Shown here: positions 4,722 to 33,864 of the stretch, one piece after another | How positions within the stretch are numbered: position 1 is the stretch's first letter | Layout of the letters: each line of letters begins with the position of its first letter | Origin: a virus | Reading direction: 5' to 3' (one strand) | Virus record (IMG/VR): IMGVR_UViG_3300017971_000565 | Location: 1 to 34,528 of that record | Length of the DNA: 34,528 nucleotides | The notes under the pieces: generated by a model | What the model was told of the DNA's origin: nothing | The model's database searches: none | Seen by the model: the letters and a program-made list of their open reading frames with translations, nothing else | Position numbers and translations under genes: made by a program

Positions 4722-4752
4722 CAAAGATATATGATCACTTAATACAAATCAA
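4722..4752 (-). promoter_or_regulatory. Bacteroidota-type promoter for the replication operon
   Basis: On the minus strand, TTG (4750-4752), a 20-base spacer and TATCTTTG (4722-4729) match the TTG / TAnnTTTG promoter pattern of Bacteroidota primary sigma factors. The ATG of the first gene (4693) lies about 29 bases downstream, a sensible leader length. The site directly borders the CAATGTTATA array, so binding there could control it. Confidence 0.6.
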
Positions 4753-4789: not shown

Positions 4790-4919
4790 CAATGTTATAT
4801 ATCAATGTTATAAATATATCAATGTTATATATCAATGTTATAATATATCAATGTTATAATATATCAATGTTATAATATATCAATGTTATAATATATCAAT
4901 GTTATATATCAATGTTATA
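4790..4919. repeat. Nine-copy CAATGTTATA array between divergent genes
   Basis: CAATGTTATA starts at 4790, 4803, 4820, 4833, 4849, 4865, 4881, 4897 and 4910; start-to-start distances are 13, 17, 13, 16, 16, 16, 16 and 13. All copies share one orientation and the spacers are A/T only. It lies between the minus-strand promoter at 4722-4752 and the plus-strand gene pair. It could be an operator array, an iteron set or a centromere-like site. The GTTATAT ends match the arms of the operator at 30276-30292. Confidence 0.85.
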
Positions 4920-4968: not shown

Positions 4969-5154
4969 ATGAAAAACGTGTTCCGGGAAATATACAAGAT
5001 CCAAAAACAAATTGATCACAACGCCGAAATTATCCAATCATCAAATGATGGTAAAAAGATCCAAACCGCACGTGATAAAAATTTGAAACTTTCGGATCAA
5101 CTTGTTGCATTAAAAATAATTGCTGATAAATTATTGGAAGGAAACAAACAATGA
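4969..5154 (+). CDS. Small helical protein, first of the plus-strand pair
   Basis: The 61-aa product starting MKNVFREIYK is a predicted coiled-coil or long-helix protein (KIQKQIDHNAEIIQSS, then LSDQLVALKIIADKLLEG). A longer reading from the ATG at 4912 is open but would start inside the last copy of the repeat array, so the ATG at 4969 is preferred. Its stop overlaps the next start (ATGA), so the two are likely co-expressed. These two are the only genes facing right in the window. Function unknown. Confidence 0.6.
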   Translation: MKNVFREIYKIQKQIDHNAEIIQSSNDGKKIQTARDKNLKLSDQLVALKIIADKLLEGNKQ

Positions 5155-5600
5155 AAGATATTTTGGTTCACCATTTTTATTGTTTTTTAAGTGCCGTTTA
5201 TTATCTGATAAAATTTATGCCATTCATAATTATTTATTTGGTAATAATTATTTTGATTTTCGGTTGCACCGAACAACCGGTTGTTAATTTGGAACCACCG
5301 GTTCATCCACTTGCCGGTGAATTTGTTATCCACTCACAAGATCCATTGCCGGGATCCGCAACAATCAAGATCCGGGAAAACGGGAAAATTGAAAATGGGA
5401 TCTTGATTGATAAAATAGCTATTTGGATAGATGGAACCGTTGATCCTTCCGGATCCTTCACGGGAAAATTTTGGAATGATGATTCGGTACCCGGGAAGAT
5501 CACCGGGATCTTTACAAGATCGGTTGGTGCCGGGATTTATTCAATAAAATTTGATTCCGTGTTGTTTCACGGAACGTGGTATGCAAAAAGAACCAAATAA
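5151..5600 (+). CDS. Predicted lipoprotein, possible lysogenic-conversion or exclusion factor
   Basis: The 149-aa product has a long hydrophobic N terminus (about residues 14-38) ending in the lipobox-like LIFGC with the acylated cysteine at about residue 39. The mature part is rich in glycine and alternating strands (for example GSFTGKFWNDD and GIYSIKFDSV), like a small beta-sandwich or barrel. It is coupled to the gene before it. Phage lipoproteins expressed apart from the lytic operons often block superinfection (for example Llp of T5), and its strand and position would suit that; this is inference. Base composition matches the rest of the phage, including nine GATC between 5340 and 5521. 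Confidence 0.7.
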   Translation: MKDILVHHFYCFLSAVYYLIKFMPFIIIYLVIIILIFGCTEQPVVNLEPPVHPLAGEFVIHSQDPLPGSATIKIRENGKIENGILIDKIAIWIDGTVDPSGSFTGKFWNDDSVPGKITGIFTRSVGAGIYSIKFDSVLFHGTWYAKRTK

Positions 5601-29983: not shown

Positions 29984-30271
29984 TTAAGTTTTCCCGTTTG
30001 ATTTTATAATCCCGTTTTTTACAAAGTGAATTAAAATTTTTAATGATGTGGATGGATTCCTTTTCCCGGATTCGATCATATAAAGTGAATGTGATTCAAT
30101 CCCAACATAATATGCAAATTCTTTTCTTGTTAAACCGGCACGTTCCCGGATCTTCAATATTTCCGTTCCATCAAGATCAATAAGATCCGGAAGATCTTCA
30201 ATATCAACCTTCCGGATTCCCTGTTTTAAATAACCGTTTTTTGTTGTTCCCAAATTCCTACCTATTGACAA
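29984..30271 (-). CDS. XRE-type helix-turn-helix regulator
   Basis: The 95-aa frame has an N-terminal extension of about 35 residues and then a helix-turn-helix domain (TEILKIRERAGLTRKEFAYY, VGIESHSLYMIESGKRNPS, about 36-84) of the XRE/Cro-CI type. The only starts are TTG at 30271 and 30253; with transcription predicted near 30277, 30253 leaves more room and has AGGT upstream. Its promoter overlaps a perfect palindrome, as expected for self-repression. The HTH domain is confident; operator binding and a role in the lysis-lysogeny choice are inference. Confidence 0.82.
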   Translation of the reverse strand: MSIGRNLGTTKNGYLKQGIRKVDIEDLPDLIDLDGTEILKIRERAGLTRKEFAYYVGIESHSLYMIESGKRNPSTSLKILIHFVKNGIIKSNGKT

Positions 30272-30294
30272 TGATATATAACAAAGTTATATTA
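30265..30294 (+). promoter_or_regulatory. Sigma70-like divergent promoter
   Basis: TTGACA (30265-30270), a 17-base spacer and TATATT (30288-30293) match the E. coli-type consensus at 11 of 12 positions. Transcription would start near 30300 and run into the hairpin at 30331. It faces away from the regulator and overlaps the regulator's own promoter and operator. Confidence 0.5.
30276..30292. promoter_or_regulatory. Palindromic operator candidate
   Basis: ATATAACAAAGTTATAT has perfect seven-base arms around three bases. It overlaps the -7 element of the regulator promoter (30282-30289) and the spacer of the divergent promoter, so one bound protein could block both. The arm GTTATAT also occurs in the 4790-4919 array. 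Confidence 0.65.
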
Positions 30295-30312
30295 GTAATG
30301 TTTCAAATGCAA
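30282..30312 (-). promoter_or_regulatory. Bacteroidota-type promoter for the regulator and packaging genes
   Basis: TTG (30310-30312), a 20-base spacer and TAACTTTG (30282-30289) on the minus strand give the same spacing as the replication-operon promoter at 4722-4752. It sits just upstream of the regulator gene and would also serve the terminase genes if no terminator intervenes. Confidence 0.55.
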
Positions 30313-30356
30313 TTGCATCCATTATTTATTCCCGGCAACGTTGCCGGGATTTTTTA
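30300..30356 (+). ncRNA. Candidate ~55-nt plus-strand small RNA
   Basis: The segment runs from the start expected for the 30265 promoter to the T-run of the hairpin terminator. It contains a 12-base palindrome ATGCAATTGCAT (30307-30318) and then the 18-base terminator stem. It holds no open reading frame of useful size. It is antisense to the last codons of the gene ending at 30322. RNA existence is inferred from promoter plus terminator only. Confidence 0.4.
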
Positions 30357-30912
30357 TTTCACCATCATCAACTTGTTTTTTATATGCAAGTTGTTTTTCA
30401 TAATATTTTATTATACTGCTAATATCACCAAGTGCATTTTTTGCCCGGTGATATTTTTTCATCCACTTTTCATTCCGATCCAACAAACGTTGAATGTGAT
30501 CTTCATAATATTCAATGGATCCACGTTTCAGTTTCCCGGATGGTTCCGGGATCTTAAATTTAATCGTGATTCCATCCGCAAATGAAAGATCATAATTATC
30601 ACACATTTCATTGTGTTTTTTCCCGATACAATGTTCCAATTCGTGAACGATCGTTTGCGCAACCCGTGTTGTTTTGATCCTATCAACGCCGGGATGCCGG
30701 TTCAAATATAAACGCATCCAACGTTGATTATAATATGCACATCCCAACCGGGATGTTCCGGATCTTTTATAAACTACTTCCACCGTTAAATGATAAACCG
30801 GATCAAAACGCCCGATCCAAGAATTAAAATATTTTATGGATGCCAAAATTAGTTTTCGTAAATCCTTTGTTGAATATGCCGTTTTGTTTTTAATCTTGAT
30901 TTCAATTTTCAT
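30322..30912 (-). CDS. Metzincin-like zinc protease candidate (HExxHxxGxxH)
   Basis: From the ATG at 30912 (MKIEIKIKNK) the product is 196 aa; the frame is open to 30939. It contains TIVHELEHCIGKKHNEMCD, an exact HExxHxxGxxH zinc-binding motif with catalytic Glu, about residues 90-100. Before it are strands (YHLTVEVVYKRSG, WMRLYLNRHPG) consistent with a small zincin fold. After it come a short strand and a coiled coil (IEYYEDHIQRLLDRNEKW). It may cleave a host or phage protein early in infection, but a structural zinc protein is possible. The gene's last codons form the palindromic terminator of the opposite strand. Confidence 0.7.
   Translation of the reverse strand: MKIEIKIKNKTAYSTKDLRKLILASIKYFNSWIGRFDPVYHLTVEVVYKRSGTSRLGCAYYNQRWMRLYLNRHPGVDRIKTTRVAQTIVHELEHCIGKKHNEMCDNYDLSFADGITIKFKIPEPSGKLKRGSIEYYEDHIQRLLDRNEKWMKKYHRAKNALGDISSIIKYYEKQLAYKKQVDDGEIKNPGNVAGNK
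30331..30355 (+). terminator. Intrinsic terminator (plus-strand orientation)
   Basis: CCCGGCAACGTTGCCGGG is a perfect 18-base palindrome followed by A and six T on the plus strand. On the minus strand no T-run follows, so it works rightward only. It lies inside the last codons of the minus-strand HExxHxxGxxH gene. Confidence 0.75.
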
Positions 30913-31531
30913 CACCATCAAATAATTTTGGTTTATCATTCACCGGTTTAACATCAACAAGATCAATCCCACGTTTCACAAGATCTTCCAATTCTTTTTC
31001 CGTTTCCGTTCCCTTCACAACATATTCAATTCGTTGCGGTTGGAACGCTTGAAATATTCCCGGAATGAATTCACCATCAATGTGTGTTTGTTTCCCTTCC
31101 AAATCCCGCATAATACATTTCCGGTGTGCAACGAACACCCACGTTTTCCCAACCACAAAACCGTTTGGAACCGATTTGATCCGCCGGGAAACACCCATTG
31201 CACCGCATTCATTTGAAAACTTTTGCGGTGCGGGATAATACTTTTCACCGATCCATAATAAACCGCAACGCCCGGTGATGGATCTTAAACCACAAATATT
31301 TTTGCAATGATCCGTTCGTTCCAACCTGCAATGATTTGATGTTACAAGATCCGCATCAACCCACGTGAAACCACGTGATGGTTTGATTCCGGATCCGCAA
31401 CGTGTGCAAACTTCCAACGGAACCGGCAACAACCCGCAATTCACCGCAAGTGCATCCGATCTTAAATATAATCCGCCCGGTTTCCGGTATCCGCAACCAC
31501 GTTTGTTTTCATAAACTGTTTTTATTTTCAT
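30902..31531 (-). CDS. Cysteine-rich phage protein of a conserved uncharacterised type
   Basis: The 209-aa product starts with GCGYRKPGGLYLRSD, then CTRCGSGIKPSRGFTWV, four further cysteines (CKNICGLRS, RCGLLWIGEKYYP), GVSRRIKSVPNGFVVG, TWVFVAHRKCI and PGIFQAFQPQRIEYVV. I recall proteins of this layout as conserved hypotheticals in several phages, with CxxC zinc sites and a PSRGxTW motif; no function is known to me. It is coupled by ATGA to the zinc-ribbon gene before it and overlaps the HExxH gene by 11 bases. Confidence 0.65.
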   Translation of the reverse strand: MKIKTVYENKRGCGYRKPGGLYLRSDALAVNCGLLPVPLEVCTRCGSGIKPSRGFTWVDADLVTSNHCRLERTDHCKNICGLRSITGRCGLLWIGEKYYPAPQKFSNECGAMGVSRRIKSVPNGFVVGKTWVFVAHRKCIMRDLEGKQTHIDGEFIPGIFQAFQPQRIEYVVKGTETEKELEDLVKRGIDLVDVKPVNDKPKLFDGDEN

Positions 31532-31794
31532 TTCCCAACCTCACTTTTATATTGATATGCTTTGTTCCCGTGTGCAAAAACGGCACCACAAAATTCACAA
31601 CGTTTCCCGGATCCCGCAAAACTCCACAAATAAACTCTGTTTCTAAATTTGCAAAATGGACAATCCGCATTTATATATGATCTTCCAAACAACGGGCGAA
31701 CACCCGTTGTTTGAAATTCTTTTTCAACAATATCATCACGTTCACCACGAATGAATTCACCAACATCTTGATATTTTATTTTTTTATTCTTCAT
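31528..31794 (-). CDS. Small zinc-ribbon protein
   Basis: From the ATG at 31794 (MKNKKIKYQD) the product is 88 aa; the frame is open to 31809. Two CxxC pairs (DCPFCKF and RCEFCGAVFAHG) about 20 residues apart form a classic zinc ribbon. Such ribbons bind nucleic acid or protein. It overlaps both neighbours. Confidence 0.6.
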   Translation of the reverse strand: MKNKKIKYQDVGEFIRGERDDIVEKEFQTTGVRPLFGRSYINADCPFCKFRNRVYLWSFAGSGKRCEFCGAVFAHGNKAYQYKSEVGK

Positions 31795-33601: not shown

Positions 33602-33864
33602 ATTGATTTTTTATTTTTTACTATTTTGAAATAACGATCAACCTTAATTCCAAATTGTTCACAACAATCTTGATAAATACACAACCGATCAATCAACGGA
33701 ATATCATCCGAATATTTCAAACCGGAACATTCCAAATGTGTTTCTTCACGATCATATATCATTTGCCATAAATCCATTTTGATTTCATCATCAAGTGAAT
33801 CAACGTGATCACGGATCACGTTGAATCTTTCTTTTAATATTTCTTGTTTTTTTCTTCGTGCCAT
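33598..33864 (-). CDS. Hypothetical small protein
   Basis: The 88-aa product is mostly helical (KQEILKERFNVIRDHVDSL, EIKMDLWQMIYDREE) with three cysteines (LCIYQDCCEQFG). It overlaps the genes on both sides by one and four bases. No family recognised. Confidence 0.5.
   Translation of the reverse strand: MARRKKQEILKERFNVIRDHVDSLDDEIKMDLWQMIYDREETHLECSGLKYSDDIPLIDRLCIYQDCCEQFGIKVDRYFKIVKNKKSI

Follow-up and report, generated by a model that had tools for sequence, protein, structure and literature searches.

What does a phage control from a short gap that holds a promoter on each strand, a palindrome across both and, just beyond, a hairpin followed by a run of T? This arrangement lies beside a small regulator gene of an uncultured tailed phage, in a linear record of 34,528 nt, perhaps incomplete, the whole of which is called the window here. 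An earlier note on this DNA had listed a plus-strand promoter, a palindrome, minus-strand promoter elements and a hairpin with its T-run, and had read them as an uncommon kind of phage decision switch. All of these elements are present. The locus is best read as the control site of a small, self-regulating XRE protein, whose operator covers two overlapping divergent promoters. What raises the locus above chance is that its strong terminator is unique in the window and that the operator motif recurs at 4798–4919.

The regulator gene is on the minus strand (29984–30253) and encodes 89 amino acids from a TTG codon at 30253. The ORF is readable from another TTG at 30271, and the codon at 30253, which is preceded by TAGGTAGGA, is the more likely start; the intergenic gap is therefore about 68 bp. 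The protein belongs to the small XRE/HTH_3 type: it scores 24.7 bits against Pfam HTH_3 (PF01381), above the cut-off of 23, and matches PHROG 2104 (E 6.7e-9), and its NCBIfam scores are far under their cut-offs. A single-sequence AlphaFold model (pLDDT 77) has a four-helix HTH fold, for which Foldseek returned HipB and restriction–modification controller proteins with a probability of about 0.99 and weak E values (0.01–0.2).

The candidate operator for this protein, ATATAACAAAGTTATAT (30276–30292, no strand), has perfect 7-bp arms around a 3-bp centre. Its core, TATAAC-N3-GTTATA at 30277–30291, is the sole perfect copy in the window. The palindrome shares bases with the spacer and with the −10 hexamer of the plus-strand promoter, and overlaps the −10/−7 elements of both promoters. 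As a palindrome it is ordinary: the window holds 36 of the same class for about 26 expected, and one arises in 193 of 3000 shuffles (6.4%) of the 72-bp intergenic region. It nevertheless looks like a genuine protein site, and the main evidence is that the motif recurs in an array. When at most one mismatch to TATAAC-N3-GTTATA is allowed, the window contains 9 sites for 0.03 expected, eight of which, each with one mismatch, lie in tandem at 4798–4919 and form an array (4797–4919, unit TATATCAATGTTATA, no strand, spacing 13, 16 or 17 bp). Since the array consists of a single duplicated unit, the recurrence amounts essentially to one independent coincidence and not to eight. Outside its own bounds, the array finds its best match in the operator region (score 19, compared with at most 17 in about 4,890 other windows), and only 9 of 3000 shuffled versions of the intergenic region fit an array unit equally well; the array and the operator are both rich in A and T, and part of the likeness is composition. 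The array occupies the gap between a leftward operon (4693 to 919), which encodes a primase and a VapE-type helicase, and two rightward ORFs (4969–5600), and it holds nested leftward promoter-like elements (TTGATA-16/17-TATTAT or TATAAC, 10/12). The shared motif suggests that the regulator probably acts at the array too. The proposal that an XRE regulator has an operator over its own promoter is thus upheld by the HTH_3 domain and by the eight-copy recurrence, with binding itself a prediction; the earlier note had overlooked this recurrence.

Each of the two promoters, taken alone, is less distinctive. The plus-strand promoter (TTGACA-17-TATATT, 30265–30293) matches the sigma70 consensus at 11 of 12 positions. 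Matches of this quality number 2 in the window, compared with 2.2 in dinucleotide shuffles and 1.1–1.35 in order-2/3 Markov genomes, and one arises in 57 of 3000 shuffles (1.9%) of the 72-bp intergenic region; on its own, the promoter is ordinary, near chance genome-wide. The other match in the window (7084–7056, minus strand, again TTGACA-17-TATATT) lies within a coding gene, and therefore such matches do arise by chance here. The minus-strand promoter of the regulator can be read in two ways, as a Bacteroidota-type promoter (TTG-N20-TAACTTTG, 30312–30282) or as a sigma70 promoter (TTGAAA-17-TGTTAT, 9/12, 30306–30278). The Bacteroidota consensus, TTTG / TANNTTTG, has been refined to TAHHTTTG, and Bacteroidota mRNAs are described as devoid of Shine–Dalgarno sequences (PMC6847099). 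A Bacteroidota-like promoter arises in 26 of 3000 shuffles of the 72-bp region. A second TTG-N20-TAHHTTTG element, TTGATTTGTATTAAGTGATCATATATCTTTG (4722–4752, minus strand), is found upstream of the leftward primase and helicase operon and is present in 36 of 3000 local shuffles. The two intergenic sites fit the Bacteroidota consensus, and the helicase is closest to those of Cellulophaga phages (36%), but the host may not be a Bacteroidota: AAGG/AGGA-type Shine–Dalgarno cores precede 16 of 34 genes, for a background of 5–7%. The choice between the two readings hangs on the host, and the Bacteroidota assignment, correct as to the element itself and contested by this use, is only a possible one. 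As a separate observation, Shine–Dalgarno cores stand ahead of minus-strand gene starts, even though the genome otherwise strongly avoids AG.

Downstream of the plus-strand promoter is an intrinsic terminator oriented on the same strand (30330–30355), made of the hairpin TCCCGGCAACGTTGCCGGGA (30330–30349) followed by TTTTTT. It is the only one of its class (perfect stem of at least 8 bp with 6 or more G/C, and 6 or more T among the following 8 bases) on both strands of the window, and none of this strength was found in 80 simulated genomes. The hairpin as a minus-strand terminator was ruled out, as there is no T-run on that side. The terminator points against every nearby gene. The hairpin, perfect as had been described, does not lie in empty DNA: it is placed within the 3′ end of a minus-strand ORF (30322–30939), the last codons of which form it. 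This upstream neighbour runs toward the regulator gene and carries a metallopeptidase-like HExxH motif (HELEHC); the function suggested for it is based on the motif only, because no significant match was found in Pfam, PHROG or NCBIfam. Further strong 11-bp hairpins with weaker T-rich plus-strand tails occur within minus-strand genes at 31686–31713 and 33800–33824.

Promoter and terminator together predict a plus-strand RNA of about 56 nt (about 30300–30355). The spacing between them would give a compact stable RNA, with a minimum free energy of −18.1 kcal/mol (z about −3.6). The genome's one strong terminator favours the terminated RNA that had been proposed earlier, which stays a prediction. 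A feature that had escaped notice is that the last 34 nt of the predicted RNA would lie antisense across the end of ORF 30322–30939 on its 3′ side, stop codon included. Pairing of the predicted RNA with the starts of other phage genes was no better than that of shuffled RNA (81/200), and Rfam gave no match at gathering scores in any part of the window. A leader peptide on the plus strand was set aside, since the ATG at 30298 precedes the predicted transcription start and its frame passes through the terminator without a stop codon.

These elements can be assembled into a model. A regulator dimer would bind the core at 30277–30291 and thereby cover the cores of both promoters, which overlap and would be mutually exclusive, one directing leftward transcription of the regulator gene and the other the 56-nt RNA ending at the terminator. 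The regulator would thus repress both its own gene and the short RNA. Through the eight sites at 4798–4919 it might also control the leftward replication operon, the two rightward genes (4969–5600), or both. When the regulator is scarce, the short RNA would be made and would pair through its 34 nt with the 3′ end of the HExxH-gene mRNA, which might lower the stability or read-through of these transcripts and so limit those that enter the regulator gene from upstream. The antisense action is the least certain step, and we propose it tentatively, as something that may well not occur. For the whole model, that is a self-repressing regulator, a divergent short RNA, nine sites including the array, and antisense action, we put the chances at about even. 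A more elaborate version can be imagined, in which the regulator uses its own operator and the array about 25 kb away as a joint sensor: as the phage replicates, the sites would multiply, the array would be a sponge whose capacity rises with the number of phage copies, free regulator would fall, and the promoters of the short RNA and of the regulator would be released, so that RNA control of the genes preceding the terminase genes would be tied to replication. We regard this version as very unlikely. Should the model be true, one regulator in a phage of a poorly sampled lineage would join its own gene, an antisense RNA and a replication operon by one motif; one protein, nine sites and one RNA would make a compact, directly testable model, and it would suggest that antisense units like OOP occur beyond the lambdoid phages.

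The same regulator and operator are compatible with an RNA that does nothing. The plus-strand promoter would then be a by-product of the AT-rich operator, and the terminator would serve to stop stray antisense transcription into the genes at 30.3–34.5 kb. The chance-level frequency of 11/12 promoters would be expected in this case, a single strong terminator directly after the promoter suits insulation, and the comparison of gene starts with shuffled controls gave the short RNA no trans target. However, TTGACA contains GAC, which is strongly depleted in this genome, so that a perfect −35 hexamer is less expected than dinucleotide shuffles suggest. We consider an idle RNA of this kind unlikely, though a serious contender. 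That the elements have nothing to do with one another is most improbable in our view. Here palindrome, promoter match and hairpin would be independent of one another, with the hairpin acting on the minus-strand mRNA alone, for instance in processing or stabilising it between the HExxH gene and the regulator; promoters and palindromes of these classes are indeed at chance level genome-wide, the hairpin folds on the minus strand too, and CCCGG/CCGGG words are abundant in the genome. Yet the T6 tail is on the plus side only and makes this hairpin the window's single strong terminator, and the operator motif recurs in the array.

That recurrence could have another origin if the shared motif were bound by a replication initiator and not by the XRE protein. 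The sites at 4797–4919 would then be an iteron origin, which eight tandem AT-rich repeats beside primase and helicase genes do resemble, and the copy at 30277 would be a secondary site or a second origin, with the short RNA as a primer. This interpretation has to accommodate a lone copy that sits precisely on an HTH regulator's promoter; moreover, no initiator belonging to a known protein family was identified, and GC skew does not reverse near either site. It is in our opinion quite unlikely.

The closest parallel to the predicted RNA is the pO-oop-tO unit of lambda, which likewise makes a short RNA from a promoter of its own and stops it at an intrinsic terminator, and in which this RNA covers the 3′ end of the adjoining phage gene in antisense (in our case by prediction). 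Lambda OOP overlaps cII and lowers the stability or read-through of cII transcripts; the RNA predicted here overlaps the HExxH-motif gene. The oop/cII overlap is 52 bases in lambda (PMC5869508), compared with 34 predicted in this phage. The OOP promoter carries a site for a repressor, LexA, whereas the site found here would belong to the adjacent XRE regulator, which has a divergent overlapping promoter. The resemblance suggests at most that the locus works like OOP; it is not counted as a member of the OOP family, having no Rfam match. The arrangement of the promoters recalls RcoLS20 of plasmid pLS20, in which two promoters, one of them that of the regulator, are divergent and overlapping; one operator spans the two, another lies at a different place, and looping is supported by experiment for this switch (PMC4207663). 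In contrast with pLS20, one of the promoters here would yield only a terminated RNA, and the other sites form an array of eight copies about 25 kb away on a linear record. With the C proteins of restriction–modification systems and autoregulators of the HipB/MqsA type, the regulator shares small size, an HTH_3 domain, a similar predicted fold and the presumed action of a dimer on a palindrome at its own promoter, but no restriction–modification, HipA or MqsR-like gene was recognised beside the regulator of this phage, and the best Foldseek E value was 0.014.

These parallels make the 'uncommon kind' of switch proposed earlier doubtful, as the locus resembles the lambda unit as well as known cases of divergent, overlapping promoters under an HTH protein. 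The idea of a lysis–lysogeny decision is not supported either. No integrase, CI-type repressor, Cro or excisionase was found among the scanned proteins, in a record that is linear and perhaps incomplete and of which a few small ORFs fell outside the scan. No plus-strand gene that could encode a divergent opposing repressor lies beyond the terminator. A switch of the CI/Cro type was rejected on present evidence, with neither lysogeny genes nor a second repressor detected among the scanned proteins. The style of control seems to be already known and the phage to be new, with an RNA that is so far predicted only.

The regulator, terminase, HExxH protein, portal, capsid and helicase served as queries for relatives, singly or as pair alignments, against viral contigs, genome contigs and phage records; no relative covering the locus was found in these collections. 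L004 (portal 66%) was the single near relative, a fragment of 5.6 kb with the portal and capsid genes that stops short of the locus. L005–L008 gave distant capsid matches (about 25%), and L003, which encodes an unrelated HTH protein, was rejected as a relative. A scan of the collection for tandem operator copies matched eight contigs, none of which has proteins in common with the phage, and in the four that were inspected no HTH gene adjoins the operator-like sites; the motif alone is consequently not evidence of kinship. In L009, operator-like repeats lie inside coding sequence. Six viral contigs unrelated to the window by protein carry perfect TATAACNNNGTTATA sites in pairs spaced 18 bp (L010 3523–3555, L012 702–734, L013 5591–5623, L014 4603–4635, L015 6651–6683 and L016 10719–10751). 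In the two inspected, L010 and L013, the pairs are upstream of a conserved 107-aa gene and downstream of a capsid-like gene, and no HTH gene adjoins them. Within the window itself, the intergenic stretch 727–918 is rich in repeated GGTTCACACGT and GTGTGAAC words in both orientations, with TRF arrays at 758–798, and may be a second cluster of binding sites or a packaging site.

The genome also has a marked word bias. On both strands of the window (1–34528), CGCG and GGCC are absent, CATG and CTAG occur twice each and GTAC 10 times, for 71–228 of each expected from independent bases. The AG/CT dinucleotide odds ratio is 0.38, and GAC/GTC is at about 0.12 of expectation. GATC (650 for 228 expected) and CCGG (622 for 71) are enriched. 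The scarcity of GAC, CATG, GGCC and CGCG extends to all three codon phases. The same pattern of avoidance is seen in L004 (1–5570) and not in unrelated loci, and, judging from these counts, it looks like the avoidance of many restriction sites in the lineage formed by this phage and L004.
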